In this document: one piece after another, positions 43,964 through 64,000 of the stretch
How the letters are laid out: every line of letters starts with the position of its first letter
How positions within the stretch are numbered: the stretch's first letter is position 1
NCBI RefSeq assembly: GCF_002020135.1
Contig: NZ_MPZS01000001.1
Span: 1,488,001 to 1,552,000, forward strand
Origin: Thioclava marina
GTDB taxonomy: Bacteria > Pseudomonadota > Alphaproteobacteria > Rhodobacterales > Rhodobacteraceae
Direction of reading: 5' to 3'
DNA length: 64,000 nt
Notes under the pieces: model-generated
Database searches by the model: none
What the model was told of the DNA's origin: nothing
The model's input: the letters and a program-made list of their open reading frames with translations, nothing else
Made by a program: the position numbers and the translations under genes

Positions 43964-44045
43964 GGAAAGCTCCGATGCTGTCGCGTTGCGTTTGTTCCGC
44001 AGCTCGATATAGGGTCGGGCGCGAAACGGGCCAGTGGAGAATGAG

Positions 44046-46455: not shown

Positions 46456-46465
46456 AAGCGCTTCG

Positions 46466-46530: not shown

Positions 46531-46583
46531 CTACCCTCCGACGATCGCGATCCCGCGTCGGATGAGGCCGCTCCCCCTCTTTC

Positions 46584-48179: not shown

Positions 48180-48319
48180 GATCCCCTCCCGCGATGCGCC
48201 TCCGTCCTCGTTTTCGCAAGCAAGCGACGCTGCGGCAAGGGCCGCACCGGGGCAATCGCGCAAAATCGCTTTGCACAAACGCAAGGAAGGGCTTGCCTGT
48301 CAGGGGGGTGATCCGTTCT

Positions 48320-49555
48320 ATGGCGCAAACCTCTCGGAGCCATCCCGTGTTCGCCTATCGCCTCCTCGTAAGCTTCGCGACCCTGCCGGTTCTGGTCCGG
48401 CTGGGCTGGCGCGTGCTGCGCGGCAAGGAAAGCGCGCAGGCGGCGGGTGAACGGCTTGGCGGGGGGGAAGCTGCACCCGGGCGGGTCTGGCTGCACGCCG
48501 CATCGAATGGCGAACTGACCTCGGCGCGCCCGCTGATAGAGGCGATGCTGGCGCGCGATCCGGAGTTGCGGCTCATGGTGACGGTGAACACCGCGACGGC
48601 GCGCGCGATGGGAGAGGGCTGGGCCGATCCGCGCATCGCGATACGCATGGCGCCGCTCGATCATCGCGCGGTGCTGGGTCGGTTCCTGCGCCGCCATGCG
48701 CCGCGCGCGCTGATCGTGATCGAGAATGAGCTTTGGCCGAACCGGATGGCGCTGGCGGCGCGGGCGGGCTTGCCGATCCTCGTGATCGGGGCGCGGATCT
48801 CCGAACGCTCGGCGGCGCGCTGGGGCAAGACCGGGCTCGGGCAGAAGATGGTCGCGCAGATCGGGGCGCTCTCGGCGCAGGATGCGGGGTCGGAAAGCCG
48901 GTTCGTGAAACTTGGCCTGTCGCCCGAGCGGCTCTTGCCACAGGCGAACCTGAAAACCGCGATCACGCTGGAGCGCGGCGCGCCGCTTGATTGGGATCGC
49001 AGCGAGACGGTGCTCGCCGCGTCGACGCATGAGGGCGAGGAGACGCTGGTTCTGAGCGCCTTCGCCGAGGCCCGCACCCGCCGCCCCGGGTTGCGCCTGA
49101 TCCTCGCCCCACGCCATCCGCGCCGCGCCCCCGAGATCGCGGCACTGATCGCGAAGGCGGGGCTGTCTCATACCAGCCGCTCGAAGGATGAGCCGCCCGC
49201 AGCAGAGGTCTATCTTGCCGATACGATGGGCGAGATGGGGCGCTGGTATGCAAGCGCCGGGATCTGTTTCGTAGGCGGTTCGCTCGTCGAGAAAGGCGGG
49301 CACACGCCCTACGAACCTGCGGGCTTCGACAGTGCGATCCTGCACGGGCCGCATGTCGCGAATTTCCGCGAGGCTTACGGCGCCCTTGATGAACAAGGCG
49401 GTGCAACGCTTTGCAAGGATGTGGCGGACCTCGCGGAGCAATTCGCGACGCTCGACGCCCCCGAGCAGGCGGAGATGGCCCGCGCGGCGCGGGCGGCGCT
49501 TGGCCCGCCCGCCGATATCGAGGCGTTGTCGCAGGCCGTGCTCGACCGGCTCTGA
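48320..49555 (+). CDS. waaA: 3-deoxy-D-manno-octulosonic acid transferase
   Basis: Inner-membrane glycosyltransferase that adds Kdo to lipid IVA. 411 residues; the N-terminal anchor YRLLVSFATLPVLVRLGW precedes WLHAASNGELTSARPL, with the acidic residue in the position of the catalytic Glu, and VIENELWPN. The C-terminal domain has GEMGRWYASAGICFVGGSL and GGHTPYEPA, standard for KdtA. The ATG at 48320 follows a G-rich site. The product indicates a lipid A with Kdo. Confidence 0.92.
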   Translation: MAQTSRSHPVFAYRLLVSFATLPVLVRLGWRVLRGKESAQAAGERLGGGEAAPGRVWLHAASNGELTSARPLIEAMLARDPELRLMVTVNTATARAMGEGWADPRIAIRMAPLDHRAVLGRFLRRHAPRALIVIENELWPNRMALAARAGLPILVIGARISERSAARWGKTGLGQKMVAQIGALSAQDAGSESRFVKLGLSPERLLPQANLKTAITLERGAPLDWDRSETVLAASTHEGEETLVLSAFAEARTRRPGLRLILAPRHPRRAPEIAALIAKAGLSHTSRSKDEPPAAEVYLADTMGEMGRWYASAGICFVGGSLVEKGGHTPYEPAGFDSAILHGPHVANFREAYGALDEQGGATLCKDVADLAEQFATLDAPEQAEMARAARAALGPPADIEALSQAVLDRL

Positions 49556-49624
49556 GCCGCGCGAGAGGCTTGCATTGCAGGCCAAAACGCTTATCTGCTC
49601 AGACATTCTGGAGATGATGCGCAG

Positions 49625-50068
49625 ATGATCCGTTACACGCTGCAATGCGATCAGGACCACCGTTTTGAAAGCTGGTTCCCCTCGGCCGACGGGTTCGAGG
49701 CGCTAAAGGCTGCCGGTCAGCTGGAATGCGCGATCTGCGGCTCGCGCAGGGTCGAGAAATCGCTGATGGCGCCCTCGGTGACGCCCGCGCGCAAGAAGGC
49801 CGACGCGCCCGAGGCAAAGCCCGAACGCCCGCTGTCGGAACCCCAGTCGGAAGCCGAAAAGGCCTTCGCCGCGATGCGCCGCCACATCGAGGAGAACTCG
49901 GATTACGTCGGCATGAACTTCGCCAGCGAGGCCCGCGCCATGCATGCCGGCGAGACCGAAGCCCGCGCCATCCATGGCGAGGCGAAACTTGAAGAAGCGC
50001 GCGAGATGCTCGAAGAAGGCTTGCCCGTTCTTCCGCTCCCGTTCCTGACCCGCCGCAAGACGAACTGA
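49625..50068 (+). CDS. DUF1178 family protein
   Basis: 147 residues. A zinc-ribbon-like N terminus: YTLQCDQDHRFESWFPS then ECAICGSRRVEKSLMAPS, with three Cys and one His as likely metal ligands. The rest is charged and helical (EAEKAFAAMRRHIEENSDYVG and onward). It matches DUF1178, found widely in alphaproteobacteria without an assigned role. It stands 69 bases after waaA on the same strand and converges on the next GMC gene. Confidence 0.85.
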   Translation: MIRYTLQCDQDHRFESWFPSADGFEALKAAGQLECAICGSRRVEKSLMAPSVTPARKKADAPEAKPERPLSEPQSEAEKAFAAMRRHIEENSDYVGMNFASEARAMHAGETEARAIHGEAKLEEAREMLEEGLPVLPLPFLTRRKTN

Positions 50069-50074
50069 GCCCGC

Positions 50075-51736
50075 TCAGCCCGCGATCTGCTCCGCCTGCC
50101 GCAACGCCAGCGCGCCGATGGTGAGCGAAGGGGCCTCGCCGCCTCCGGTCGAGGAGAAAAGGCTCGCATCCGAGATCCACAGGTTCGCGTGATCGTGGCT
50201 GCGCCCGAACGCATCGGCGACCGAGCTCGCACTGTCCGTCCCCATCCGCGCCGTGCCAAAGACGTGGGTTGCGGAAAAGCTGTCCCAGCTGCCGCGCTCC
50301 TCGAGCAGGGCCCCGGCCCCGGTTGCGCGCAAAAGGCTTCGGCAACCCTCGGCCATCTTGCGCAGCAGCGCGAGGCTGTTTTGCGTCAAAACCGAGCTAA
50401 TCACCGGTAGCGGCACACCGTTGGCGTCGCGTCGTTCGGGCGAAAGTGTCACGTGGCTGCGCTCGTCAGGGATCACCGCCCCTATCGCCGCAACCGTGAT
50501 CGCCGAACCGAACTGCGCCTGCATCGCCCGATGAAACGCGGCACCATGCCCCGGCACCAGTCGCTGTGCATAACCAATCGGCCCGCTCAGGCCCAGCTCG
50601 CGCACTGCAGAGGTGTAACGACATCCGCCTACAGCGCCCTGCACCCCGTCCGGCGCGGATTGCGCCCAGCAGATTGCGTCTGCGGGCAGACCCATATGAC
50701 TATTCTCGAGCCCCGGCAGAATGGCCGTGCTCGACCAGCCCAGCGTTTCCATGAAGTTGCGCCCGACCTGCCCCGAGCCGTTCGCCACACCGTCGGGGGC
50801 ACCGGGTTGGGCGCTCGCCAGCAGCAGGCGCGGGGTCTGTACGGCACCGCCCGAAAGGATGAGGATCGGGGTCTCCTGCCGAACCGTCCGTCCCGCATGG
50901 ACATAGTGAACCGCCGCCGCCCGCCCGTTCGGGCCGAGCTCGATCCGCGTCACCGGCGCGTTCGCGATCAGCGTCAGGTGTCCGCTTTCCTGCGCATGAC
51001 GCAGATATGTGACATCGGCCGAGCCCTTGTCGCCCAGCGGACAGCCCCGGCTGCACTGGCCACAATAATTGCACGAGGGCCGGCCGTCATAGGGCACGCT
51101 GTTGGCCGCACGCATATTGGCCTCGAAGGGCAGGCCGACCTTGCCCCCCGCCTCGACCAGACGCCGTGCGGGCGGGCTGAGCGGATGAGCGGGCAAAGGC
51201 GGCGGCGCGGCGCGCGGACGGGCATCGCTCCCCGACGGCTCCGCAGGCCCGGCCACCCCCATCATCGCCTCGGCCTGCACATAATAGGGCGCGAGTTCGT
51301 CATAGGAGAGCGGCCAGTCCGCCCCGACGCCATGATCGCGCGCAAGGTGAAAGCTCGCGGGATGGAGACGATGCGCCTCGCCCACGAAATGCAGCGTGCT
51401 TCCACCGACCCCCATCACATGCGCATAGCCGATGCCACCCGCCTCGCGAGACGCGGGTGGAGGCTGGCGCGGCGTCACGGCATCAAAGCTTTGAAGATCG
51501 CGGTCCGCTGGATCGAGCCGCCCCAAGTCGCCATACAGGATCTCGCCCCGGCTGCCCGGAGGAGCGGGGAACAGATGGCGCTCCCAGTCGGTATTGGTAA
51601 GCGAGTAATCCCTGACCGGATCGAAGACCGGCCCCGCCTCGAGCAAGAGAACTGAAAGCCCCCGCTTGGTCAGCGCCCAGGCAGAGGCCGCACCGCCCGC
51701 TCCCGAGCCAATGATCACGACATCGGGCGCATTCAT
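50075..51736 (-). CDS. GMC oxidoreductase with ferredoxin-like Cys motif
   Basis: 553 residues of the gluconate 2-dehydrogenase/fructose dehydrogenase branch of the GMC family. The FAD motif is VVIIGSGAGGAASAWAL. A cluster motif CNYCGQCSRGC (Cys 222, 225, 228, 232; C-x2-C-x2-C-x3-C) lies at 51041-51073 and resembles an iron-sulfur ligand set. The C terminus has ATHVFGTARMG with the catalytic His and the FAD-closing NLWISDASLFSSTGG. The start at 51736 overlaps the stop of the Tat partner (ATGA). Substrate unknown; sugars or sugar acids are typical. Confidence 0.85.
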   Translation of the reverse strand: MNAPDVVIIGSGAGGAASAWALTKRGLSVLLLEAGPVFDPVRDYSLTNTDWERHLFPAPPGSRGEILYGDLGRLDPADRDLQSFDAVTPRQPPPASREAGGIGYAHVMGVGGSTLHFVGEAHRLHPASFHLARDHGVGADWPLSYDELAPYYVQAEAMMGVAGPAEPSGSDARPRAAPPPLPAHPLSPPARRLVEAGGKVGLPFEANMRAANSVPYDGRPSCNYCGQCSRGCPLGDKGSADVTYLRHAQESGHLTLIANAPVTRIELGPNGRAAAVHYVHAGRTVRQETPILILSGGAVQTPRLLLASAQPGAPDGVANGSGQVGRNFMETLGWSSTAILPGLENSHMGLPADAICWAQSAPDGVQGAVGGCRYTSAVRELGLSGPIGYAQRLVPGHGAAFHRAMQAQFGSAITVAAIGAVIPDERSHVTLSPERRDANGVPLPVISSVLTQNSLALLRKMAEGCRSLLRATGAGALLEERGSWDSFSATHVFGTARMGTDSASSVADAFGRSHDHANLWISDASLFSSTGGGEAPSLTIGALALRQAEQIAG

Positions 51737-52236
51737 GCCGTCCCCCATGGCGGCGGATATCCCAAGGGTTGCGGCGCAGGTTCGAGCGGCAAACCGGCAA
51801 GCGCCTCGGGATGGATGAAATAGTAGCCCACGGCAAGAAGCCGCGTCACATGATAGAACCTGCCCGGGATCTCGTTGTAATCCGCCTGCGCGAGCCAGTC
51901 GACGATCTCGTCACGCGCGGCGGGCGGCAGATCGGCAAAGCGCGCGGGCCCGACGCTGTCGAGAAAACCGGTCCCCGCGGCAATCAATCGCTCAGTGAGG
52001 CTGCCCGGCTCGATCTCTGCGCGCAGCTCCGCCCCGACGCCAAGTTCGCTTGCCGAGGGAACGCCCTCGAAACCGGGCAAAAGACTGTCGAGAAAGGCGT
52101 CGAACGTTGCGGGCGCGATGGTGGGCGACCCGAGATCTTGCGCGCGCAACACCCCCGGCGCGAGCCCCGAGGCAATCCCCGCCGCCATGGCGAGCAATGT
52201 GGCACGTCGCGTTGGATTACCGATGGCCCGACCCAT
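51733..52236 (-). CDS. Gluconate 2-dehydrogenase subunit 3-like Tat protein
   Basis: 167 residues with a twin-arginine signal (TRRATLLAMAAGIAS; cleavage probably near LRAQ). The mature part ITEMS such as FDAFLDSLLPG and YNEIPGRFYHVTRLL fit the small subunit that escorts GMC dehydrogenases through the Tat pathway. The GMC protein itself has no signal, so it would be carried along. The third, cytochrome c subunit of classical enzymes is missing, leaving the electron acceptor unknown. Confidence 0.82.
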   Translation of the reverse strand: MGRAIGNPTRRATLLAMAAGIASGLAPGVLRAQDLGSPTIAPATFDAFLDSLLPGFEGVPSASELGVGAELRAEIEPGSLTERLIAAGTGFLDSVGPARFADLPPAARDEIVDWLAQADYNEIPGRFYHVTRLLAVGYYFIHPEALAGLPLEPAPQPLGYPPPWGTA

Positions 52237-52385
52237 GCAATTACCGGCCTTTCCTGTGATATTTCGGCCAAACTGCGGAGAACCTTACCCGTGGAAGCAC
52301 TCGCGTTTCCTTGCGTAAACTCACGCTTTGGTGAATGCTTGCCGCGAAACCAAAAGAAATTCCACCCAGAATGACGGAGATCTGG

Positions 52386-52886
52386 ATGAAACGCCTCGCA
52401 AGCGCAGCAATCATCGCCCTGACCACCCTCGCATCGGCCGCACATGCCGGCGAAATCATGCCGCCGATCTTCGGACCGAGCAAGAATTCCGAAAGCGAAA
52501 CGCGCCTCTTTGCCGGTCTGAACTGGACCTTCGGCAAGCAGGGCGGCGGGCTGTCGACCCGCGTCGGCGCGATCTATACCGACATCGATTCCGACGATGA
52601 CGTGCAAGGCGCGCGCGTCTTTCTCGATCTCGACCTGTTCAAGCAGGGCGGCACTCCCAGCGTCTTCGTGACGGGCTTCAAGGGGACGACCTATGGCATG
52701 GGCGAGCTGGGTCTGGGTTACGACTTCGGCAACGGCGAGATGATCGGCCAGTTCGGCGGTCTGATGAACCATTTCGAAATCGGCGGAAATTACGGCTTTT
52801 CGGGCAGCGGCATGAACGGCTACGTGGGCGTCACGAGCTTCAAGTTCGACAAGGTCCAGCCGAATGCCCCGTATGAAATGTACTGA
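52386..52886 (+). CDS. Small exported protein, possible outer-membrane beta-barrel
   Basis: 166 residues with signal peptide MKRLASAAIIALTTLASAAH (cleavage near AHA-G). The mature 145 residues alternate polar and non-polar residues in short Gly-rich strands (TRLFAGLNWTFG, STRVGAIYTDID, YGMGELGLGYDFG, QFGGLMNHFEIGGNYGF), as in eight-stranded barrels. No family I can name. Start at 52386 has GGAG upstream; the ATG at 52371 is an alternative. Single gene in front of a strong hairpin. Confidence 0.6.
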   Translation: MKRLASAAIIALTTLASAAHAGEIMPPIFGPSKNSESETRLFAGLNWTFGKQGGGLSTRVGAIYTDIDSDDDVQGARVFLDLDLFKQGGTPSVFVTGFKGTTYGMGELGLGYDFGNGEMIGQFGGLMNHFEIGGNYGFSGSGMNGYVGVTSFKFDKVQPNAPYEMY

Positions 52887-52925
52887 TAAAGACCCGCTCT
52901 AGATCAGATCGGTAGTCAAAGCCAA

Positions 52926-52952
52926 CTCTGCGCGAGCCCGCCTCGCGCAGAG
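52926..52952 (+). terminator. Strong hairpin downstream of the exported-protein gene
   Basis: CTCTGCGCGAG, CCCGC loop, CTCGCGCAGAG: a perfect eleven-pair stem 40 bases after the stop. No T run follows, so it may be a processing or stability structure instead of an intrinsic terminator. The rest of the 52887-53106 gap shows no gene. Confidence 0.55.
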
Positions 52953-53106
52953 GTCCCGACCGGCGCGGACGCCACGTCCCCCCGGCACCACCTTTTCCAA
53001 CGTCTTCGCGGGTTTGCCTCGCCCCTTTCCCCGACGCCAAGCAAATCTCTTGCGCGCGCCAACTGCTTGGGCTAGCAGGGGCGCGACTCTGCCCAAGGGG
53101 GTTTCC

Positions 53107-54366
53107 ATGCCAATTCTGGTGATGAAATTCGGCGGCACTTCGGTCGCTGATCTCGACCGGATCGCCAACGCCGCCGAAAAGGTGAAGCGCGAGGTCGAGC
53201 GCGGCTATGACGTGATCGTCATCGTCTCGGCGATGTCGGGCAAGACCAATGAGCTGGTGAACTGGGTCGAAACGACCTCGCCGCTCTATGATGCCCGCGA
53301 ATACGACGCGGTCGTTGCCTCGGGCGAGAACGTCACCGCCGGTCTGATGGCGCTGCGCCTGCAGGAGATGGGCGTCTCGGCGCGCAGCTGGCAGGGCTGG
53401 CAGGTTCCGATCAACACCACCTCGGCGCATAGCGCCGCGCGTTTCGTGTCGATCCCGCGCGACAATATCGATGCCAAGTTCGCCGAAGGCTTCCGCGTCG
53501 CGGTCGTCGCCGGCTTCCAGGGCCTTTCGGCCGAGGGCCGGATCACCACACTGGGCCGCGGCGGCTCGGACACCACGGCGGTGGCCTTCGCCGCCGCCTT
53601 CGGCGCGGAGCGTTGCGACATCTACACCGATGTCGACGGCATCTACACGACCGACCCGCGCATCTCTTCCAAGGCGCGCAAGCTCGACAAGATCGCCTTC
53701 GAGGAGATGCTCGAGCTCGCATCTCTCGGCGCGAAGGTGCTGCAAACCCGCTCGGTCGAGCTCGCGATGCGCTACAATGTGCGCCTGCGGGTGCTCTCCT
53801 CCTTCGAGGAGACCGATGAAAACTCTGGAACCCTCGTTTGCGGTGAGGATGAAATCATGGAATCGAAAGTCGTCTCCGGCGTCGCCTATTCGCGTGACGA
53901 GGCCAAGATCACGCTCTTCACCATCGAAGACCGCCCCGGCATCGCCTCGGCAATCTTCGGACCGCTGGCGGAGGCCGGGATCAACGTGGACATGATCGTC
54001 CAGAACATCTCCGAGAAGGACTATGACGACGCCCATACCGGCGCCGTGACCGACATGACCTTCTCCTGCCCGACCAACCAGGTCGCCCGCGCCCGCAAGG
54101 CGATGGAAGACGCGATGGCCGCGGGTCTGATCAAATATGACGACCTGATCATCGACACCGAGGTCGCCAAGATCTCCGTGGTCGGCATCGGCATGCGCAG
54201 CCATGCGGGCGTCGCGGCGAAGATGTTCGAGGCGCTGGCTGCTGAAAACGTCAACATCAAGGTCATCGCAACGTCCGAAATCAAGATTTCGGTGCTCGTC
54301 GACCGCAAATATCTGGAACTGGCGGTTCAGGCCCTGCATGATGCCTTCGAGCTCGACAAGGCCTGA
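53107..54366 (+). CDS. lysC: Aspartate kinase
   Basis: First enzyme of the aspartate family pathway (Lys, Thr, Met). 419 residues: kinase domain with the KFGGTSV start and GRGGSDTTAVAFAAAFGAERC near the active site, then two ACT domains (from TLFTIEDRPG and from ISVVGIGMRSHAGVA) that bind inhibitor amino acids. AAGGGGG precedes the ATG at 53107. Upstream in-frame codons to 53014 have no support. Adjacent to ptsP, a pairing I know from other alphaproteobacteria. Confidence 0.95.
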   Translation: MPILVMKFGGTSVADLDRIANAAEKVKREVERGYDVIVIVSAMSGKTNELVNWVETTSPLYDAREYDAVVASGENVTAGLMALRLQEMGVSARSWQGWQVPINTTSAHSAARFVSIPRDNIDAKFAEGFRVAVVAGFQGLSAEGRITTLGRGGSDTTAVAFAAAFGAERCDIYTDVDGIYTTDPRISSKARKLDKIAFEEMLELASLGAKVLQTRSVELAMRYNVRLRVLSSFEETDENSGTLVCGEDEIMESKVVSGVAYSRDEAKITLFTIEDRPGIASAIFGPLAEAGINVDMIVQNISEKDYDDAHTGAVTDMTFSCPTNQVARARKAMEDAMAAGLIKYDDLIIDTEVAKISVVGIGMRSHAGVAAKMFEALAAENVNIKVIATSEIKISVLVDRKYLELAVQALHDAFELDKA

Positions 54367-54406
54367 CTGACCGGCGGCCTTCATCAAACGGGGGCAGACT
54401 TTACAG

Positions 54407-56650
54407 ATGGTGGAACTGAGCGAAAGTGACAGTCGCACGCTGCTTCGACGGCTGCGCGACACGCTGGCCACCGAGGGGAGCGGTCAGGATCGCCTGAACC
54501 ACATCACCCGGATCATCGCGGATTCGATGGGCACGCAGGTGTGCTCGATCTACCTGTTCCGCGACCCCGAGACGCTGGAGCTTTGCGCCACCGAGGGCCT
54601 CAAACCCGAGGCCGTCCACCACACGCGGATGCGGCTGGGCGAGGGTCTCGTGGGCCGCGTCGCGCGGTCTGGCCGCCCGATCAACTCCGCCGATGCGCCC
54701 TCCGAGCCCGGTTTCCGCTACATGCCCGAGACCGGCGAAGAGATCTATTCCAGCTTCGTCGGCGTGCCGATCCAGCGCGTAGGCGAAAAACTCGGCGTGT
54801 TGGTCGTGCAATCGAAAGAGAAGCGCTCCTTCTCCGATGACGAGCTTTACGGGCTCGAAGTCGTCGCGATGGTGCTGGCCGAGATGACCGAGCTTGGCGC
54901 CTTCGTAGGCGGCGAGAATTCGGAAATCGGCGCGACCCACCGTTTCCCCGTGATGTTTCGCGGCGCGACCGGACAGGAGGGCGCGGCGGAAGGCCGGGTC
55001 TGGCTGCACGAGCCCCGCGTGGTCGTGACCAACCCGGTGGGCGAAGACCCGGAGGCCGAGGCGTCACGTCTCGAGGCCGCGATCAAGGAATTGCGTGGGC
55101 AGATCGACACCATGCTCAAGAGCCCGACCCTGATCGACAAGGATCAGCGTCAGGTTCTCGAGACCTTCAAGATGCTCGCCGCCTCGAAGGGCTGGAAGCG
55201 GCGTATGCTCGAGGATATCGCGGCGGGCCTCTCGGCCGAAGCCGCGGTCGAGAAGGAACAGAACGCCGCCCGCGACCGGATGGCGAAATCGCCCGATCCC
55301 TATCTGCGCGAGCGGCTCAACGATCTCGACGATCTGTCCAACCGGCTGCTGCGCCAACTCACGGGTCAGGGCACCGATACCGGCGCCGAACTCCCCGCCA
55401 ACCCGGTGCTGATCGCGCGCAATATCGGCCCGGCGGAGCTGCTCGATTACGACCGCAAGCTCAAGGGGATCGTGCTCGAGGAAGGCTCGGTCGGGTCTCA
55501 CGCCGCGATCGTGGCGCGCGCCCTGTCGATCCCGCTGGTGATCCATGCGGGCCGGATCACGGCCGAAGCCCTCAACGGAGACCCGATCCTCGTCGATGGC
55601 GATCAGGGTGTGGTGCATCTGCGCCCCGAGGAAAGCGTGACCCACGCCTTCCGCGACAAGATCGCGATGCAGGCCGAGGCACAGAAGCGCTATGCCAGCC
55701 TGCGCGACCTGCCCGCGCAGGACCGCAACGGCACCACCATCTCGCTGATGATGAACGCAGGTCTCATGGCCGACCTGCCCTCGCTGAAAGGCTCGGGCGC
55801 GGACGGTGTCGGCCTCTTCCGCACCGAGCTGCAATTTCTCACCCGCACCCGCGTGCCGCGCCGCGACGAGCTCGCCCAGCTCTATCGCCGCGTGATGGAT
55901 GCGGCCGACGGCAAGCGGGTCCATTTCCGCACGCTCGATATCGGATCGGACAAGGTCGTGCCCTACATGAAACCGCAAGACGAGCCGAACCCCGCGATGG
56001 GCTGGCGCGCGCTGCGCGTGGGGCTCGACAAACCCGGCGTTCTGCGAATGCAGCTCCAGGCGCTGCTGCGCGCGGGCAATGGGCGGCCGATGTCGATCAT
56101 GTTCCCCTTCATCGCGCTTCCCGAGGAGTTCACCGCCGCGCGCGACATGCTGCTGCGCGTACGCGATCGCGAAGCGCAGCTGGGTCGCCCCGTCCCCGAG
56201 GATCTCCGTGTCGGCGCGATGCTTGAGACCCCTTCACTCGGCTTCGCCCCCGACAGCTTCTATCGCGACTGCGATTTCATCTCGATCGGCGGCAATGACC
56301 TCAAGCAGTTCTTCTTCGCCGCCGACCGCGAGAACGAGCGCGTGCGCCGTCGCTACGACACGCTCGACGGCTCTTTCCTGAATTTCCTCGAACGGATCAT
56401 CGCGCGCTGCTCGGTCTCGGGCACGCCGCTGAGTTTCTGCGGCGAGGATGCCGGCCGGCCGATCGAGGCGCTGACTCTCGCAGCACTCGGGATCCGCACG
56501 CTCTCGATGCGGCCCGCCTCCATCGGTCCGGTCAAACATCTGATCCGCCGCGCGGACCTGACCGAGCTTCGCCAGGTCATTCAAAGGGCACGCAACGAAG
56601 GCCAAAGCTCCGTGCGCGGCGCTGTCACCAACTACCTCGCGCATCTCTGA
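54407..56650 (+). CDS. ptsP: Phosphoenolpyruvate-protein phosphotransferase PtsP (EI-Ntr)
   Basis: Enzyme I of the nitrogen-related PTS, 747 residues. An N-terminal GAF domain (about 20-165) may sense glutamine or 2-oxoglutarate as in related proteins. The phosphohistidine domain has His365 in SVGSHAAIVARAL. The PEP-binding barrel includes GVGLFRTELQFL, DIGSDK and the active-site Cys in FCGEDAGRP. It would phosphorylate the HPr encoded at 29046. No ptsN (EIIA-Ntr) is seen in the window. Confidence 0.94.
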   Translation: MVELSESDSRTLLRRLRDTLATEGSGQDRLNHITRIIADSMGTQVCSIYLFRDPETLELCATEGLKPEAVHHTRMRLGEGLVGRVARSGRPINSADAPSEPGFRYMPETGEEIYSSFVGVPIQRVGEKLGVLVVQSKEKRSFSDDELYGLEVVAMVLAEMTELGAFVGGENSEIGATHRFPVMFRGATGQEGAAEGRVWLHEPRVVVTNPVGEDPEAEASRLEAAIKELRGQIDTMLKSPTLIDKDQRQVLETFKMLAASKGWKRRMLEDIAAGLSAEAAVEKEQNAARDRMAKSPDPYLRERLNDLDDLSNRLLRQLTGQGTDTGAELPANPVLIARNIGPAELLDYDRKLKGIVLEEGSVGSHAAIVARALSIPLVIHAGRITAEALNGDPILVDGDQGVVHLRPEESVTHAFRDKIAMQAEAQKRYASLRDLPAQDRNGTTISLMMNAGLMADLPSLKGSGADGVGLFRTELQFLTRTRVPRRDELAQLYRRVMDAADGKRVHFRTLDIGSDKVVPYMKPQDEPNPAMGWRALRVGLDKPGVLRMQLQALLRAGNGRPMSIMFPFIALPEEFTAARDMLLRVRDREAQLGRPVPEDLRVGAMLETPSLGFAPDSFYRDCDFISIGGNDLKQFFFAADRENERVRRRYDTLDGSFLNFLERIIARCSVSGTPLSFCGEDAGRPIEALTLAALGIRTLSMRPASIGPVKHLIRRADLTELRQVIQRARNEGQSSVRGAVTNYLAHL

Positions 56651-56706
56651 GGACAGCGGGAGGCGCGGCCCTTCCCAGCGCTGGACGACGACAAAGACCG
56701 GGATGA

Positions 56707-56815
56707 GAGGGGGCGCTGCCCCCTCGGCGCTTCGCGCCTCACCCCCGAGATATTTTCGTCAAGAAGAAGCGAGACCTCTTCTTCGAGTTGGCCCAAATAT
56801 CCCTGCCGGAGGCAT
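56707..56815. repeat. Dispersed 3'-end repeat, tail-to-tail pair (R5)
   Basis: Between convergent ptsP and ecsC-like genes. Left copy, read with ptsP: GAGGGGGC-GCT-GCCCCCTC (56707-56725), second stem GGCGC-TTC-GCGCC (56726-56738), TCACCCCCGAGATATTTTCG and an AAGAAGAAG tail. Right copy, read with the ecsC gene, is class B: GCCTCCGGCAGGGATATTTG plus a GGCCAACTCGAAGAAG tail, without the G-rich stem. Confidence 0.82.
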
Positions 56816-56844
56816 CCGAAGCCCGAAAGACGTGCCCGGCCGGG

Positions 56845-57597
56845 TCACTTCGCGATGCGCGCCACCAGCTCCTCGCGTAAGAGCCCCTCATCGGTGCCGC
56901 TGTCGCGGGCGAGTCGCTTGAGCCCGAAATGGACGCGGGCGATTTCCTGATAATAGCTGGTGAAGGCATAGTTCACCGCAGCACCCGCGACCGCGCCCAG
57001 GATCGGGGCCGCCTGGGCCGCGAGTTTCTGACCGAGCACCGCCGAAAGCCGCGGAGCGACCTTGGCGATGAGGGATTTCATGCTCGGCCCGGTGATCGTG
57101 GCGCGCGCGGCGAGAAAGCTCAGATCCATCCCGTCATCGTTTTCGAGCGGCCCGGCCGAGGCGAAGACGCGCAGGCATTCGAGGCGCACCTCGTCGGACG
57201 CCGGATCGAAACCATGTTCGGCGGCGATGCCCTGGATCGCACGCAGAAGCATCGTCACGGTGAAGGGCAATTCGGCGAGCGAGCTTGCAAGACCGCCTGC
57301 GCCCCCGGCCGCGCCCATCGCCGCCGTCAGCGTACGGTTGAGCCAGTCGGGGCGGTCCGACACGATGCCGCGCGAGCGTTCGGCCGCCACCATCGCACCG
57401 GACAGCGCGCGCTCCGTCGCCCCGTCGAGCCCACCCCGGACCGGGGCCGGAAGTTTCTCCAGCAGGCTCTCAGCGGAGGTGCCGACATAGCCGATCAGCT
57501 GCATCACGACGCCGCCCGCCGCGCGGTGGCGTCTGGCCAGCGCGTCGAGCTCTCCGAGCAGTGCGGGGTCGGTCACGGGGGGAAGGATCTCGGCCAT
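56845..57597 (-). CDS. EcsC family protein
   Basis: 250 residues. Gly/Ala-rich helical segments such as AAMGAAGGAGGLASSLAELP and QAAPILGAVAGAAVNYAFTS are typical of EcsC proteins, which in Bacillus sit with an ABC exporter but here stand alone. Probably membrane-associated. The ATG at 57597 has GGAG at good spacing; the in-frame ATG at 57603 is too close to it. Repeat copies lie on both sides (56790 and 57610). Function unknown. Confidence 0.78.
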   Translation of the reverse strand: MAEILPPVTDPALLGELDALARRHRAAGGVVMQLIGYVGTSAESLLEKLPAPVRGGLDGATERALSGAMVAAERSRGIVSDRPDWLNRTLTAAMGAAGGAGGLASSLAELPFTVTMLLRAIQGIAAEHGFDPASDEVRLECLRVFASAGPLENDDGMDLSFLAARATITGPSMKSLIAKVAPRLSAVLGQKLAAQAAPILGAVAGAAVNYAFTSYYQEIARVHFGLKRLARDSGTDEGLLREELVARIAK

Positions 57598-57609
57598 GGG
57601 CATCTCCTG

Positions 57610-57646
57610 CTTTTGGCCAAATATGGGGGCAGCCGCGCCGTTCGGC
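57610..57646 (-). repeat. Degenerate dispersed repeat (R6)
   Basis: Read on the minus strand after the GNAT stop: CGGCTGCCCCCATATTTGGC followed by CAAAAG. It keeps the CCCCC-ATATTTGG-CCAA order but has lost stems. Probably a decayed copy. Confidence 0.5.
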
Positions 57647-57648
57647 AA

Positions 57649-58131
57649 TCAGGCGGCCTTCTCGACGGGGCCTTTCACGCCCTCCCAGGCGCCGGGGACA
57701 AGTTCGAGCCCGAGCACGCGGTCGGGGTTGGTGGGGGGTGGCATCTCGACCCCTTCGAGCTTTTCGAACCCGAAGCGCGAATAATAGGGCTCATCGCCGA
57801 CCAGCAGCACCCGCTCCCAGCCCAGACGATGCGCCTCGGCGAGGCTCTCATGCATCAAGAGCCCGCCCAGCCCTTCCCCCTGCCGCGTCGGGTGCACCGC
57901 GACCGGCCCCAGGAGCAACACCCGTTTGCCGCCGACGCGCACCGGCCAGTAGCGGATCACCGCGGCGAGAATGCCATCCTGGCGCAAGGTGAGGCACAGG
58001 GGCGCGACCTTTTTAACCCCGTCGCGCAGACGATAGGAGGACAGCGCCGTGCGCCCGGGCGCGAAGCAGAGGTCATAGAGCGCCTCGACTTCCCACCAGT
58101 CCTCGTCCGTTTCCTCTTCGAGCTGATACAT
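57649..58131 (-). CDS. GNAT family N-acetyltransferase
   Basis: 160 residues with the acetyl-CoA-binding motif A in LLGPVAVHPTRQGEGLGGLLM (Q/R-x-x-G-x-G/A) and a late ERVLLVGDEPYYSRFGFE, as in the YhbS-type acetyltransferases. Substrate unknown. Its last bases adjoin a decayed repeat copy; the start at 58131 is divergent from the flavin reductase gene with a 68-bp gap. Confidence 0.87.
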   Translation of the reverse strand: MYQLEEETDEDWWEVEALYDLCFAPGRTALSSYRLRDGVKKVAPLCLTLRQDGILAAVIRYWPVRVGGKRVLLLGPVAVHPTRQGEGLGGLLMHESLAEAHRLGWERVLLVGDEPYYSRFGFEKLEGVEMPPPTNPDRVLGLELVPGAWEGVKGPVEKAA

Positions 58132-58199
58132 CGCGCCCGTCCTTTTGCCCTGTTCGACGCGGTAGCACGCACTAAGATCAGGATCAAACAGGAGAAAGC

Positions 58200-58802
58200 A
58201 TGTTCTATCGACCGCAAGATGGCCATGGGCTGCCGCATAATCCCTTCAACGCGATCGTGGCGCCACGTCCGATCGGCTGGATCTCGACGCGCGGAACAAT
58301 GGGCGACAATCTCGCGCCCTATTCCTTCTTCAATGCCGTGGCCTATACGCCGCCGCAGGTGATCTTTTCCTCGACCTCGGCCAAGCCGGATCGTGAGGGC
58401 ACCAAGGACAGCGTCGCGCAGATCCGCGAGTCTGGCGTGTTCTGCGTCAATCTGGTGACCTATGCGCTGAAGGATCAGATGAACGCGTCTTGCGCCAATT
58501 TCCCCGCAGGCACGGATGAGTTTGCCGAATGTGGGATCGAGAAAGCCGAATGCGAGACGATCGACTGCCCGCGCGTGGCGGCGGCCCCTGCGAGCCTCGA
58601 ATGCCGTTTGGTGCAGGTGGTGGATCTTCTGGGCGAGGCGAACTTCCTCGTCCATGGCGAGGTCACGGGCGTTCATATCGCAGATGACTGTTTGCGCGAA
58701 GGCTTCTACCGCCCCAAGGACCGGCTGGTGCGCTTTGGCTATCGGGGGGATTATGCCGCAGTGAACGAGGCCTTCGAGATGCTGCGCCCCGCCGGGGGAT
58801 GA
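58200..58802 (+). CDS. Flavin reductase-like FMN-binding protein
   Basis: 200 residues of the flavin reductase/DIM6 family. The N-terminal APRPIGWISTRGTMGDNLAP and YSFFNAVAYTPPQV are the flavin-binding segments, and FCVNLVTYALKDQMN follows the usual pattern. Either reduces free flavin for a partner oxygenase or acts alone; no oxygenase is adjacent. CAGGAGAAAGC precedes the ATG. Confidence 0.87.
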   Translation: MFYRPQDGHGLPHNPFNAIVAPRPIGWISTRGTMGDNLAPYSFFNAVAYTPPQVIFSSTSAKPDREGTKDSVAQIRESGVFCVNLVTYALKDQMNASCANFPAGTDEFAECGIEKAECETIDCPRVAAAPASLECRLVQVVDLLGEANFLVHGEVTGVHIADDCLREGFYRPKDRLVRFGYRGDYAAVNEAFEMLRPAGG

Positions 58803-58862
58803 GCCCTGCCCTCAGGCCTCCGGCTCGCCCTCCGTCTCAGGCCCCGACCTCAAGCCCCGACC

Positions 58863-59726
58863 TCAAGCCCTGCGTGCGCGGCGGCCTTCGACCAGCGTGT
58901 AGAGCCCGCTCGCCACGATCAGCACCGCCCCCGCAATCATCGCCGCGTCCGGGCGCTCTCCGAAGACGACCGCGCCAAGGATCAGCGCGAAGATCAGGCG
59001 GGTATAGCGGAAGGGCGTGATGACCGAGACCTCGCCCATCCGCATCGCCTTGGTCAGCGACCAGTAGGCGAAAGTGCCGAAGGCGACCGCACCTGCGATA
59101 TCGCGCAGCGCGATCAGGTCCGGCGTGCTCGGCCCGCCGAAGATCATCAGGATCAGCGCGCCGGTCGGGATCAGCATCATGAACCCGTAGAAGCTGAGCT
59201 GGAAATTCGACAGCACCGGCGGGCAGGCGCGAGTCGCCAGATCGCGGCCCGCGAAGCCCAGCATCCCCAGCACCGTCCAGAGCGCGGCGGGCACGAACCC
59301 GTCGAGGCCGGGGCGCAGCACGATCAGTACGCCGAGAAAGCCGATGCCGACCGCGACCCAGCGACGCATCCCCACGCGCTCGGAAAACACCACCGCCGCG
59401 CCTGCGACCACGACCAGCGGCGTGGCCTGCAGGATGGCGGAGGCGTTCGACAGCGGCGTCAGCGCGATCCCCAGCGTATAGCCAAGACGCCCCACCACCT
59501 CGAGTACGAGCTTGATTAGCATCGGCTTCGAGAGCAGCGCCGGATGCAGCAGCCGTTGCCCGCGCGCGGTCACCAGTGTCGCGAAGACCGCCATGCCGCC
59601 AAGGCCGAACAGCATCAGCACCACGCCGACCGCGACATGGGTCGACGCTGATTTGACGAACATGTCTTCCATCGCAAAAGCCGCCATCGCGACCACCATC
59701 AGCACCGAACCGCGGATATTTTCCAT
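58863..59726 (-). CDS. DMT superfamily transporter (EamA)
   Basis: 287 residues with ten predicted helices in two EamA repeats, e.g. GSVLMVVAMAAFAMEDMFVK and FGTFAYWSLTKAMRMGEVSV. Metabolite exporter of unknown substrate. GGGAGGAGAT is placed well before the ATG at 59726. It is divergent from mtnP with a 141-bp gap. Confidence 0.87.
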   Translation of the reverse strand: MENIRGSVLMVVAMAAFAMEDMFVKSASTHVAVGVVLMLFGLGGMAVFATLVTARGQRLLHPALLSKPMLIKLVLEVVGRLGYTLGIALTPLSNASAILQATPLVVVAGAAVVFSERVGMRRWVAVGIGFLGVLIVLRPGLDGFVPAALWTVLGMLGFAGRDLATRACPPVLSNFQLSFYGFMMLIPTGALILMIFGGPSTPDLIALRDIAGAVAFGTFAYWSLTKAMRMGEVSVITPFRYTRLIFALILGAVVFGERPDAAMIAGAVLIVASGLYTLVEGRRARRA

Positions 59727-59867
59727 ATCTCCTCCCGAGGGGGCACTCCCTCGCCCCGCCTTTCGCCGATAGACCGCGCGGCAAGCGGCTGCAATCCCTC
59801 TTTCCTCCTGCGCGCCCGGGGCTTAGGCTCGCCGCGACAGTTTGCGGCTAACCGGAGGATGCGCGGG

Positions 59868-60740
59868 ATGGAGAAGATGATCGGGGTGATCGGCGGCTCG
59901 GGCGTCTACCAGATCGACGGGCTGGAAGGGGCCGAATGGGTCACGGTCGACACGCCCTTCGGCGCGCCCTCCGATCAGGTTCTGACCGGCACGCTGCACG
60001 GCGTGAAGATGGCCTTCCTGCCCCGCCACGGGCGCGGCCATGTCGAGACCCCGACCACCGTCCCCTACCGCGCCAATATCGCCGCGATGAAGCAGCTGGG
60101 CGTGACCGATCTCGTCGCGGTCTCGGCGGTGGGCTCGCTGAAAGAGGCCTATGCGCCGGGCGATTTCCTGATCGTGGATCAATATATCGACCGCACCTTC
60201 GCCCGCGAAAAATCCTTCTTCGGCCCCGGCATGGTGGGCCATGTCTCGGTCGCCCATCCCGTCTGCGCGGACCTGTCCGCCGCCTGCGCCGAGGCCGCGC
60301 GCAAGACCGGCGTAAAGGTCCATGAGGGCGGCACCTATGTCGCGATGGAAGGCCCGCAATTCTCGACAAAGGCCGAGAGCGAGCTTTACCGCCAATGGGG
60401 CGCCGACGTGATCGGCATGACCGGGATGCCCGAAGTGAAGCTCGCCCGCGAGGCGGAACTCCATTACGCCTGCGTCGCGATGATCACCGATTTCGACTGC
60501 TGGCACCCCGATCACGACGCCGTGGACGTGGCGCAGGTCGTGGCCGTCGCGATGAAGAACGCGAGCAAGGCCCGCGATCTGGTCGCGGCCCTGCCCGCAC
60601 TGCTCAAAGGCGCTGCGGGAGAATGTACGACCGGCTGCACCCGCGCGCTCGACAGCGCGATCATGACCGCGCCCGACAAGCGCTCGGCCGAGATGAAAGA
60701 GAAACTGAAGACTATCGCGGGCCGCGTGCTCGACCTCTGA
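59868..60740 (+). CDS. mtnP: S-methyl-5'-thioadenosine phosphorylase
   Basis: Splits methylthioadenosine, a polyamine and homoserine-lactone by-product, into adenine and methylthioribose-1-phosphate. 290 residues from the ATG at 59868. [30 protein letters not shown] and [19 protein letters not shown] all match MTAP rather than generic PNP. Starts at 59859 or 59877 are possible. The adenine is used by Apt, encoded seven bases on. Confidence 0.94.
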
Positions 60741-60747
60741 GGACCGA

Positions 60748-61278
60748 ATGAAAGACGTCAAAGACTATATCCGCACCATCGCCGATTTCCCGCATGAAGG
60801 GATCATGTTCCGCGATGTGACGACCCTGTTTGCCGATCCGCGCGGCTTCCGCATGGCGATCGACCAGCTTCTTCACCCCTGGGCGGGCCAGCAGATCGAC
60901 AAGGTCGTGGGGCTGGAGGCGCGCGGCTTCATCCTTGGCGGCGCGATTGCCCATCAGCTTTCGAAAGGGTTCGTGCCGATCCGCAAGAAGGGCAAACTGC
61001 CCGGCCAGACCATCAGCCAAGCCTACCAGCTCGAATATGGCGAGGCGGTGATGGAGATGCATGAAGACGCGATCCAGCCCGGCGAGAAGGTTCTGATCGT
61101 CGATGACCTTCTGGCCACGGGCGGCACCGCGCGGGCGGGCATCCAGCTGATCGAGCGCGTCGGCGGCGATATCGTCGGCCTGTCCTTCATTGTCGATCTC
61201 CCGGAACTGGGCGGGCGGAAACTGCTCGAAAGCCTCGGGATGAATGTGAACGTGCTCTGCGAGTTCGAGGGGCTGTGA
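60748..61278 (+). CDS. apt: Adenine phosphoribosyltransferase
   Basis: 176-residue enzyme that turns adenine and PRPP into AMP. The PRPP loop is [17 protein letters not shown] and the N-terminal [19 protein letters not shown] is typical of Apt. It receives adenine from MtnP. The ribosome-binding site GAGG overlaps the mtnP stop; its own stop overlaps the GTG of the NUDIX gene. Confidence 0.95.
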
Positions 61279-61703
61279 GCCCGGGTCCGGTCGCTGCCGT
61301 CCTTGCCGTGGTGATCCGCGACGGGCAGGCCCTTCTGGTGCAGCGCGCGAACCCGCCCGATGCCGGACTCTGGGGATTTCCCGGCGGCAAGATCGAGTTC
61401 GGTGAGACGCTTCTCTCGGCAGCCGAGCGCGAGCTGCGCGAAGAGACCGGCGTGCGCGCAGAGGCAACGCACGCCTTCAACGCGCTTGATGTCCTTGCAC
61501 AGGGCGCAGATGAGATGCTGGAGCATCATTACGTGCTGATCGCGGTCGAATGCCGTTGGCTGGCCGGAGAGCCAAGTGCTGCCGATGATGCGCTGGATGC
61601 CCGCTGGGTCGATCTCGACCGGATCGAGGATCTTCCCCTGAGCCGCGATGTGGCACGCGTCGCGCGGCAGGCCGCAGCACTGTACCATTCTCATTCGCGT
61701 TAA
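61275..61703 (+). CDS. NUDIX hydrolase
   Basis: 142 residues. The NUDIX box is complete: [23 protein letters not shown]. Related to MutT and ADP-ribose pyrophosphatases; [17 protein letters not shown] upstream is typical of the MutT-like group. Start is the GTG at 61275 inside the apt stop. Operon position suggests a nucleotide-cleaning or salvage role, not proven. Confidence 0.9.
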
Positions 61704-61782
61704 CCCATCGCTAATTCGAATCGCGCTAGGCTGACCGCGCCTGATGGTTCGGCTGCTTGCATACACACGTGAACCGGAATGC

Positions 61783-61813
61783 CGCGCCCCGCCTGCTCTC
61801 CTGGCGGGGCGCG
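61783..61813. terminator. Perfect hairpin between convergent NUDIX and FAD-oxidoreductase genes
   Basis: CGCGCCCCGCC, nine-base loop, GGCGGGGCGCG: eleven perfect pairs centred between two gene ends. T runs are absent on both sides, so a terminator function is likely from position but not certain. Confidence 0.6.
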
Positions 61814-61826
61814 TCTCGTCTCCACC

Positions 61827-63230
61827 TCAGCGTTCGGCCAGAACCGCGCCGGGATTGAGGATGCCTTTCGGGTCCAGCGCCGATTTGATCGCCCGCATCG
61901 CCGCCAGCTTGCCCGGATCGCCGTAACGCTCCAGATCGCCGACCTTGAGCCGCCCGATCCCATGCTCGGCCGAGATCGAGCCGCCGAAGCGATCCACCAG
62001 ATCGTAGACCGTCTCGGGAATCGCGCGGCGCAGGTTTTCGTATTCCTTGCGATCGCGCCCTTCCGCCGGGAAGGCGTTGAAATGCAGGTTGCCGTCCCCG
62101 ACATGACCGAAGCAGTTGATGCGGATATCGGCAAGCGCGCGCAGGGCCGCCTCGGCCTCTTCGATGAACTGAGCCAGCTTCGGCAGCGGCAGCGAAATGT
62201 CATGGCTGGAAATCGAGCCGATCCGCTTGTTCGCCTCCGGCAGGCTCTCGCGCAGGGTCCACATCTGGGCGCGCTGGCTCTCGGAGCTTGCGATGACCCC
62301 GTCACGTACAAGGCCCTCGCCCGCCACGAAGAGCCCCGCCAACGCTTCTTCCGGCGCCAGCCCCTCCGGCAGGCCGATCTCGATCAGCACCGACCAGTCC
62401 GGGCGCGCGGCAAATGGCTGATGCACCTCCGGGCCGACGGCATCCAGAAACCGCAGCCCCTGCCCCGAAATCAGCTCGAAAGCCGAGACACAACCCGGCA
62501 TCCGCGCTTCGGCCAGTTCCAGCAATGCCAGCGCCGCCGACGGGCTTTCGACCACCATCATCGCCGTGCCGACCGCCGCAGGTTTTGGCAACAGCCGCAA
62601 CGTCGCCGCAGTGATGATCCCCAACGTGCCCTCGGACCCGATCAGCAGGTCCTTCAGGTCGTAGCCCGTGTTGTCCTTGCGCAGATGTTTCAACCCCGAG
62701 ATCACCGTGCCATCGGCCAGCACCGCCTCGACCCCCAGGCAAAGCTCGCGGGCATTGCCATAGCGTAGCACGTTCACGCCGCCCGCATTGGTCGCCAGCA
62801 CGCCACCGATCCGCGCCGAACCTTGGCTCGCGATGGTCAGCGGGAACAGCCGTCCCGCGCGATCCGCCGCCTGCTGCGCGTCCAGAAGTGTCGCGCCCGC
62901 CTCGATCTCCAGCACATGGCCCGTGACCGCCCGCACCGACGCCATCTTCTCAAGGCTCACGATCACCGGCGCGGGGCCCTCTTCGATGATCTGCCCGCCG
63001 ACCAGCCCGGTCCCGCCGCCAAAGGGCACCACCCCTACACCCGCACTGTGGCAGGTCCGCAGAATCGCCGCGACCTGCGCCGTCGAGACGGGCTTCACCA
63101 AAACCCCGCCGCAACCCTTGTAACGCCCGCGCGGCTCCTCGAGATAAGATACCCCCGGCGCGCCGATGCTCAGCCCCGGCACCTCTGCGCGCAGCGTCTC
63201 GACAAAGCTCTCATCGGCAGGTGCGCGCAT
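61827..63230 (-). CDS. FAD-binding oxidase (GlcD/D-lactate dehydrogenase-like)
   Basis: 467-residue flavoprotein of the FAD_binding_4/FAD-oxidase_C family that oxidises 2-hydroxy acids such as glycolate or D-lactate. The FAD segment is VVPFGGGTGLVGGQI, with GSARIGGVLATNAGGVNVLRYG after it; the C-terminal domain has NCFGHVGDGNLHFN and ISAEHGIGRLK, typical of GlcD and Dld. No glcE/glcF genes are adjacent, which favours a single-subunit D-lactate or 2-hydroxyglutarate type. GGAG precedes the ATG at 63230. Confidence 0.9.
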   Translation of the reverse strand: MRAPADESFVETLRAEVPGLSIGAPGVSYLEEPRGRYKGCGGVLVKPVSTAQVAAILRTCHSAGVGVVPFGGGTGLVGGQIIEEGPAPVIVSLEKMASVRAVTGHVLEIEAGATLLDAQQAADRAGRLFPLTIASQGSARIGGVLATNAGGVNVLRYGNARELCLGVEAVLADGTVISGLKHLRKDNTGYDLKDLLIGSEGTLGIITAATLRLLPKPAAVGTAMMVVESPSAALALLELAEARMPGCVSAFELISGQGLRFLDAVGPEVHQPFAARPDWSVLIEIGLPEGLAPEEALAGLFVAGEGLVRDGVIASSESQRAQMWTLRESLPEANKRIGSISSHDISLPLPKLAQFIEEAEAALRALADIRINCFGHVGDGNLHFNAFPAEGRDRKEYENLRRAIPETVYDLVDRFGGSISAEHGIGRLKVGDLERYGDPGKLAAMRAIKSALDPKGILNPGAVLAER

Positions 63231-63240
63231 CGAACACTCC

Positions 63241-63302
63241 TTCGAATTGGCCCAAATATCCCGGGGGTGAGGCTGTCAAGCCGAGGGGGCAGCGCCCCCT
63301 TC
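63241..63302 (-). repeat. Dispersed 3'-end repeat, single full copy (R7)
   Basis: Read on the minus strand after map: AGGGGGC-GCT-GCCCCCT, second stem GGCT-TGAC-AGCC, then TCACCCCCGGGATATTTGGG and a CCAATTCGAAGG tail. The stem lies nearest the map stop, 66 bases away. Confidence 0.82.
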
Positions 63303-63367
63303 CTGACCTGTCTCATTCGTCTTGCGGCAGAGGTGTCCGCACCTCCGCCCCGTATGCGTGGCCCGCC

Positions 63368-64000
63368 TTATCGCCAGGTCGGATGGAAACGGTTCGCCGG
63401 GCTCAACGTGAAGATCTCGCAGCCATCCGCGGTCACCCCAACCGAATGCTCGAATTGCGCGCTCAGCGACTTGTCACGCGTCACGGCGGTCCAGTCATCG
63501 GCGAGAACCTTGGTTTCGGGGCGGCCTAGATTGACCATCGGCTCGATCGTAAAGATCATGCCTTCCTCGAGCACCGCACCCGAACCCGCGCGCCCGTAAT
63601 GGAGCACGTTCGGCGGTGCGTGGAAGACCTTGCCGACACCATGGCCGCAGAAGTCACGCACCACCGACATCCGGTGGCCTTCGACGAATTTCTGGATCGC
63701 ATGGCCGATATCGCCGAAGGTGTTGCCCGGCTTGACCTGTTCGATCCCGATCATCAGCGCGTCATGGGTGACCTGGATCAGCCGCTCGGCCTTCCGGCTC
63801 AGGGTACCCGCGACATACATGCGCGAGCTGTCCCCGTACCAGCCATCGAGGATCACCGTCACGTCGATATTGATGATATCGCCATCCTTGAGCTTCTTGT
63901 CGCCCGGGATGCCGTGGCAGACCACATGGTTGACCGAGATGCAGCTCGCATGGCGATACCCGCGATAGCCGATCGTGGCCGAAGTCGCGCCCAGCTCGGT
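63368..64000 (-). CDS. map: Methionine aminopeptidase type I (5' end outside window)
   Basis: C-terminal 211 residues of MetAP, which removes initiator Met. Reading continues to the window edge as TELGATSATIGYRGYRHA and SCISVNHVVCHGIPGD, standard type I sequence. Metal ligands are visible: Asp in INIDVTVILDG, Asp in GWYGDSSRMY, His in GHGVGKVFHAPPN, Glu in FTIEPMVN, and Glu in AQFEHSVGV. The start is beyond base 64000. Confidence 0.95.
   Translation of the reverse strand, partial: TELGATSATIGYRGYRHASCISVNHVVCHGIPGDKKLKDGDIINIDVTVILDGWYGDSSRMYVAGTLSRKAERLIQVTHDALMIGIEQVKPGNTFGDIGHAIQKFVEGHRMSVVRDFCGHGVGKVFHAPPNVLHYGRAGSGAVLEEGMIFTIEPMVNLGRPETKVLADDWTAVTRDKSLSAQFEHSVGVTADGCEIFTLSPANRFHPTWR

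Follow-up and report, generated by a model that had tools for sequence, protein, structure and literature searches.

The window analysed here is a 64-kb stretch (G000:C1:1488001-1552000) of a 3.65-Mb Thioclava genome (G000) assembled in five contigs. Within it, the convergent genes ptsP (stop at 56650) and ecsC (stop at 56845) enclose a gap (56651-56844) that holds two tail-to-tail copies of a hairpin repeat, and further copies lie between other genes (Table 1). Pfam matches agree with the labels ptsP, EcsC, hbdA (3-hydroxyacyl-CoA dehydrogenase), acyltransferase, HAD and GMC oxidoreductase; they make the helicase a helicase-like AAA protein and ecm a methylmalonyl-CoA-mutase-type protein. A search of the window against Rfam at gathering scores came back empty, as did one of 56600-56900 that allowed E-values up to 1.

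Table 1. Repeat copies and their parts in the 64-kb window (positions are those of the window)
Feature	Position	Strand	Details
ptsP-serving copy	56709-56769	+	hairpin 1 at 56709-56723 (GGGGGCGCTGCCCCC)
ptsP-serving copy, hairpin 2	56726-56738	+	GGCGC TTC GCGCC
ptsP-serving copy, C-run to ATATTT	56742-56755	+	
ptsP-serving copy, spacer	56756-56758	+	
ptsP-serving copy, tail	56759-56769	+	TCAAGAAGAAG
Loop between both tails of the ptsP/ecsC pair	56770-56780		11 nt
ecsC-side copy	56781-56813	-	tail CCAACTCGAAG, ATATTT, short head (GCCTCCGGCAGGG), without G-rich stem
hbdA-serving copy	27967-28029	+	hairpin 1 at 27967-27981, hairpin 2 TTTGC/GCAAA
hbdA-serving copy, core and tail	28002-28029	+	TCAAGAAGAAG
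Acyltransferase-serving copy	28042-28104	-	core and tail at 28042-28069 (CCAAGAGGAAG)
Acyltransferase-serving copy, hairpin 1	28089-28104	-	hairpin 2 is GTCTGCC/GGCAGAC
Lone copy, convergent HAD/GMC gap	46466-46528	-	hairpin 1 at 46514-46528; head toward GMC stop; synteny breakpoint
Short-head copy, same-strand ecm/helicase gap	7860-7893	+	head toward helicase start; spacer 4 nt, not 3
Copy following ecm	7900-7945	-	core and tail at 7900-7927, hairpin 1 at 7931-7945, without hairpin 2
Lone short-head copy, helicase stop to next same-strand gene's start	6199-6231	-	
Lone copy upstream of FAD-oxidase gene, after gene ending at 63368	63240-63299	-	hairpin 1 at 63285-63299; tail CCAATTCGAAG, then GAG and ATG at 63230; synteny breakpoint

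The original prediction was that convergent genes carry two inverted copies and lone genes one, each copy serving the gene that ends beside it. The inverted copies in the hbdA/acyltransferase and ptsP/ecsC gaps are indeed present, tail to tail, the latter pair within the coordinates given for it, and the convergent HAD/GMC gap does hold one copy oriented to GMC. The copies that follow the helicase gene, ecm and the gene ending at 63368 also point as claimed. As a rule, the scheme breaks down within the window itself. Only 3 of its 12 convergent junctions carry any copy, and the same-strand ecm/helicase gap, expected to hold a lone copy, contains a tail-to-tail pair (7900-7945 on the minus and 7860-7893 on the plus strand).

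The repeat is real and far above chance. Genome-wide, the tail pattern ATATTTNNNNCAANNNGAAG has 162 matches (none for the reversed pattern), the core CCCCSGRGATATTT with at most one mismatch has 135 (58 forward, 77 reverse; reversed pattern none), and a second head, CCGGCGGGGATATTT, has 29 exact matches and 61 with at most two mismatches (reversed pattern three). Within the window, six matches to the hairpin-1 pattern compare with a mean of 0.86, and a looser core pattern stands out less there (13 matches, where shuffles average 7 and reach at most 16). From the stretches around matches we aligned 174 copies in register, including a few weak matches (e.g., C1 51915), at about 139 places in the 3.65-Mb genome, or roughly one copy per 21 kb. 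Three contigs bear copies (104, 44 and 23 of 171). By the gene boundaries of a home-made codon-model gene caller, 3 of the 174 lie within predicted genes, and the family is thus extragenic. Patterns with a spacer one base longer gave just 7 and 8 matches, the second ecm/helicase copy among them, so the longer spacer is rare. Such copies at C1 282229 and window 7860-7893 stand outside the 174-copy set, and the ecm copy is thus counted as lone in what follows.

In most copies the order is hairpin 1, hairpin 2, a C-run ending in GRG, ATATTT, a 3-nt spacer and an 11-nt tail. Hairpin 1 is a GC hairpin, GGGGGCnnnGCCCCC or a relative of it, hairpin 2 is free in sequence, and ATATTT is invariant. From hairpin 1 to tail the unit measures about 60 nt in window copies with both hairpins, and short-head copies measure about 33 nt. 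There is room for hairpin 2 in 99 of the 112 examined heads that have hairpin 1, and its mean perfect stem is 5.16 bp, compared with 2.65 bp (sd 0.08) in shuffles, with 57 different 5' arms. Under a scoring that favours perfect stems, applied to all the sequence gathered, a stem of at least 4 bp is present in 180 of the 192 distinct intervals, and 175 of these are perfect; the exceptions are two T.G, two C.A and one G.A, and a stricter count gives two C.A and no G.T. With two T.G pairs beside 1,045 Watson-Crick pairs, wobble is nearly absent, and upkeep at the DNA level would explain such pairing at least as well as selection on RNA.

The spacer after ATATTT is mostly GGR, TCR or CGA and is not T-rich. 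Conservation was scored in 163 copies, leaving out 11 of the 174 that are weak matches or lie inside genes, and the tail ends in GAAG in 135 of them. Mean pairwise identity is 0.837 among lone copies (84) and 0.827 among paired ones (79). In the same 163 copies the base two before ATATTT is coupled to the first tail base (G/C 77, A/T 66, G/T 4, A/C 0, others 16); the G/T combination is found in copies from two congeners. A promoter reading of ATATTT was set aside, as no conserved -35 was noticed among the listed copies.

The family is concentrated at the 3' ends of genes. Among gaps of at least 90 nt in the stretches around copies, a copy is present in 40 of the 54 that are convergent, in 55 of the 151 between same-strand genes and in 10 of the 90 that are divergent; these stretches were chosen around copies, so the absolute fractions are inflated, and the contrast between gap types should suffer less. 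The boundary tally, which drops 7 of the 174 copies (four without both flanking genes, three inside genes), places 71 of 167 classed copies in convergent gaps, 49 sense and 33 antisense between same-strand genes, and 14 in divergent gaps. Lone copies in G000 comprise 30 in convergent and 6 in divergent gaps, 2 unclassed, and 34 sense against 19 antisense between same-strand genes (p = 0.053). The corresponding ratios are 34:15 in non-Thioclava contigs (84 copies, 70 loci) and 13:11 in further genomes (37 loci with 39 copies). Annotated plasmid sites, from 8 of 18 matching records of which 7 were annotated, give 2:5, and the four samples sum to 83:50 (p = 0.005). Sense orientation is a modest bias and no rule. 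The proposal of an element that works per gene 3' end therefore stands for the association with 3' ends (40 of 54 convergent against 10 of 90 divergent gaps) and fails for strict orientation, since 19 of 53 lone same-strand copies in G000 and 5 of 7 on annotated plasmids are antisense. The five antisense plasmid cases include two parA/parB gaps: in plasmids of Marinibacterium and Antarctobacter (L341, L343), a copy lies between parA and parB, antisense in both.

The placement of the G-rich stem beside the stop of its own gene likewise survives, though as a tendency. A stop is what the head faces in 87 copies with hairpin 1 and a start in 27; among short heads the counts are 21 and 17 (Fisher p = 0.022), and another 15 heads belong to neither kind. 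Of the 87 sense copies with hairpin 1, 44 have it beginning 0-14 nt past the stop codon, and one overlaps a called gene end; in the 27 copies whose hairpin-1 head faces a start the distance is never below 21 nt. At the other end, 10 of the lone antisense copies (19 in all) have their tail 2-12 nt from the neighbouring stop. Copies thus tend to abut genes on either side, as though the gap had been pared down to the element.

These positions raise the possibility that the element acts in the transcript, its RNA hairpins terminating transcription or shielding the mRNA 3' end and AUAUUU serving as a weak U-tract or an RNase E cut, an account that we regard as rather unlikely although it has several observations on its side. 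The strong preference for convergent gaps, the scarcity in divergent ones, the short distance from stop to hairpin 1, the heads facing stops and the sense bias would all be expected of it, and RNase E sites in Rhodobacter sphaeroides are AU-enriched, according to excerpts of PMC6238624. Like intrinsic terminators, the element has a GC hairpin that often stands shortly past a stop, and back to back between convergent genes. Unlike them, it has no U-run beyond AUAUUU, it carries a conserved tail and many of its copies are antisense; with hairpin 2 taken as the pairing, the C-run and GRG usually stand between it and ATATTT, and the spacer that follows is not T-rich. Nor does the element appear to substitute for canonical terminators, as their frequency with and without a copy is not significantly different: terminators of canonical type occur at 21 of 69 convergent ends with a sense element and 12 of 44 without (p = 0.83), and at 15 of 48 against 25 of 129 same-strand ends (p = 0.11), a weak comparison in which several matches at element ends are the element's own hairpins. 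The antisense copies, a presence limited to about 139 genomic places and the near lack of wobble pairs, which an RNA reading had led us to look for in hairpin 2, also speak against it. Termination, originally offered as a reason for the regular orientation, gains no support from the spacer, from the terminator frequencies or from a hairpin 2 almost without G.U, and a role in termination or RNA stability is unproven. Annotators should be wary of labelling GC hairpins of this family as terminators by default.

Copies also occur as 41 tail-to-tail pairs (one of the 174 copies is omitted from this analysis), 36 with a loop of 7-30 nt and 5 with an interior of 123-134 nt; one close head-to-head pair was seen. 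Pairs are not confined to convergent genes as had been supposed: 21 lie in convergent gaps, and 15 of the 40 classed pairs are in same-strand and 4 in divergent gaps (one is unclassed). In the 36 short-loop pairs, partner tails share 9.17 of 11 bases compared with 7.94 (sd 0.24) when shuffled, a value reached in none of 5000 shuffles, and partner spacers match no better than chance (0.72 of 3 shared versus 0.99). Plain duplication would match both, and so is disfavoured by tails that match and spacers that do not; the simplest reading would be a hairpin constraint on the tails. The idea of a founder doublet with one TCR and one GGR spacer per pair was dropped as too weak (7 of 15 pairs, p = 0.03).

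The family extends far beyond Thioclava. Of 390 sampled genomes of the Rhodobacterales, an ecologically important order, 308 contain its head pattern, in 123 of 139 genera and with tens of copies in many (the reversed control gives at most two per genome, and one or two matches in a genome are close to the chance level), yet a description was not found in the open-access literature searched, outside of which most subscription journals lie. The G000 tail pattern is found in 30 of the 390 genomes. Where several copies of a genome stand among the matches listed, which contain pattern-fitting tails only, their tails are almost the same, and different genomes bear different tails on a shared head: TCAAGAGGAAG occurs in a pair of congeners, CCAAGAAGAAG in two genomes from a single genus, CCAAGATGAAG across several genera and YCAATTGGAAG in one. 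Other Rhodobacterales genomes have quite different tails, mostly judged from one copy read per genome, and within G000 several tail types coexist. A phage origin was rejected; the core followed by CAAG, the one tail scanned, is present in three viral contigs of the whole IMG/VR collection. One of these contigs reads like the G000 site at C1 385650.

Such dialects could mean that the tail is a sequence tag presented by the hairpins and read by a fast-evolving, genome-specific DNA- or RNA-binding factor. We consider this improbable, even though tails uniform within and different between genomes on one shared head (among the matches listed), tails kept equally well in lone and paired copies, and the coupled change of tail and base two before ATATTT all fit it. 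The coexistence of several tail types in G000 argues against it, the tails compared are those that fit the pattern, and no factor was found. DNA uptake sequences of the Neisseriaceae also form short, genome-specific dialects, often as inverted pairs at gene ends, and occur about once per kb. The Thioclava copies (174 in 3.65 Mb) are far sparser, which also speaks against such a tag, and unlike uptake sequences they are embedded in a larger hairpin unit.

Among other repeat classes, a MITE has terminal inverted repeats with a target-site duplication. The REP, BIME and REPIN families of Escherichia and Pseudomonas resemble the Thioclava family in their more than 100 extragenic copies and in a GC-rich palindrome with head and tail (excerpts of PMC3116915), as well as in inverted doublets with a variable loop and in families that differ between genomes (excerpts of PMC3116915 and PMC2817692); the Thioclava doublets, too, would be able to form one hairpin. 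The differences are substantial. A REP unit has 20-40 bp and a GTAG or CGTC tag, whereas the Thioclava unit has about 60 nt and two tandem hairpins, and the short-head copies, which fit the REP length, do not have the tag. The Thioclava head is common to much of an order and its tail varies. REPIN singlets are more decayed than doublets, whereas lone Thioclava copies are not decayed relative to paired ones. It is accordingly very unlikely that the copies form a genuine REP/REPIN family moved by a RAYT (Y1) transposase: the extragenic, palindromic copies in excess of 100, with inverted doublets, variable loop and conserved arms, match that model as given in excerpts of PMC3116915, but tails end mostly in GAAG and not GTAG, lone copies are as conserved as paired ones, and mobilisation by RAYT is largely refuted by the absence of Y1_Tnp (PF01797) from G000 and from 19 of 20 element-rich relatives (one matches), in a search that found it in 5 of 14 control genomes. 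The GTAG- and CGTC-tagged palindromic repeats of PMC3733652 are similarly tagged at one end, and in the excerpts of that paper the CGTC class apparently has no dedicated transposase; the Thioclava tag differs in being an 11-nt tail that changes between genomes. The names Rhodobacter, Paracoccus, Ruegeria and Roseobacter do not occur in the main text of PMC3733652.

Comparison with related genomes shows that sites are retained and also rearranged. Thioclava pacifica, the closest named relative among the sequences compared, is mostly 86-92% identical to G000 over aligned stretches and keeps a copy at 14 of 16 strictly comparable sites. At these sites ATATTT is identical in 84 of 84 bases and the tail in 146 of 154, values inflated by the selection of most loci for an exact core and tail, against 25 of 42 for the spacer and 53-60% for post-tail bases. 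Between C2 388418 and its orthologous site in T. pacifica, the tail is of another type, and the base two positions ahead of ATATTT has changed along with it. We aligned window positions 44001-64000 to T. pacifica, T. sediminum and the genomes G099, G204 and G383. Blocks end at 46448-46583 in all four element-bearing genomes (the first four), at 56650-56781 in all of them but G204 and at 63143-63372 in all but T. pacifica. Breakpoints thus fall at 3 of 3 element sites. Of the 16 other gene boundaries in 44-64 kb, one has a breakpoint (p = 0.004), and counting each end of one block separately raises this to two (p = 0.010), in one 20-kb stretch and five genomes whose events are non-independent, with shared events not counted apart. 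The remaining break, at about 50070-53042, reflects a block common to G000 and T. pacifica that is absent there from T. sediminum, G099 and G383.

G383 (no tail match, a single head match) is collinear over 46587-63150. At two of the three sites its outer flanks are located elsewhere, so a genome that lacks the element is bordered by breaks too. Elements are present at several junction sequences, and the rearranged ptsP gap of G099 has none. Junctions also lie at copies in loci L064, L073, L047 and L272, a comparison made only of stretches near copies. The original judgement that the pattern is 'not random spread' is borne out by sites kept between species and has to be qualified, because the family is repetitive, turns over and marks sites of rearrangement.

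Taken together, we think it fairly probable that these are REP/BIME-like intergenic hairpin repeats without the usual transposase, spread across the Rhodobacterales and mostly at the 3' boundaries of transcription units, with copies homogenised and recombining within genomes. In a doublet, the ATATTT and tail arms of two tail-to-tail copies would pair around a loop of about 12 nt, and copies may recombine with one another. Crossovers would yield inversions and translocations that leave transcription units whole, and exchange without crossover would keep the heads and tails of one genome alike and could let a site switch tail type. Selection presumably holds copies as structured 3'-boundary DNA, and sense copies probably also as mRNA 3' structure; an RNA role would likewise account for the sense bias and for stems that stand next to stops. 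A classical REP transposase does not seem to be needed, and our searches found no spreading enzyme for the family. More tentatively, and against our expectation on balance, the family could be a new class of genome-addressed repeat, in which an order-wide head carries an 11-nt tail as the genome address, dialects are kept by exchange between copies together with a putative reader, and copies are seams for re-ordering whole transcription units. As a subject for study, the family provides a natural experiment in how short repeats evolve in concert when no transposase is known for them, and a concrete seam, open to testing, where chromosomes may be rearranged between transcription units.

The five pairs with long interiors lie at G000 C1 38709-38882, 219992-220164 and 1115362-1115532, and at C2 748278-748440 and 771281-771443. 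Their 123-134 nt interior is conserved, its ends are like intrinsic terminators in some copies, and it is perhaps a small RNA or a composite repeat; none of the five has an Rfam match. An ordinary FMN riboswitch was recognised at L118:1189-1339 on the minus strand. At G000 C1 1066550/1066604, compared with T. pacifica L055, the heads correspond and the spacers seem to have changed places, as though the doublet had been inverted at its centre.
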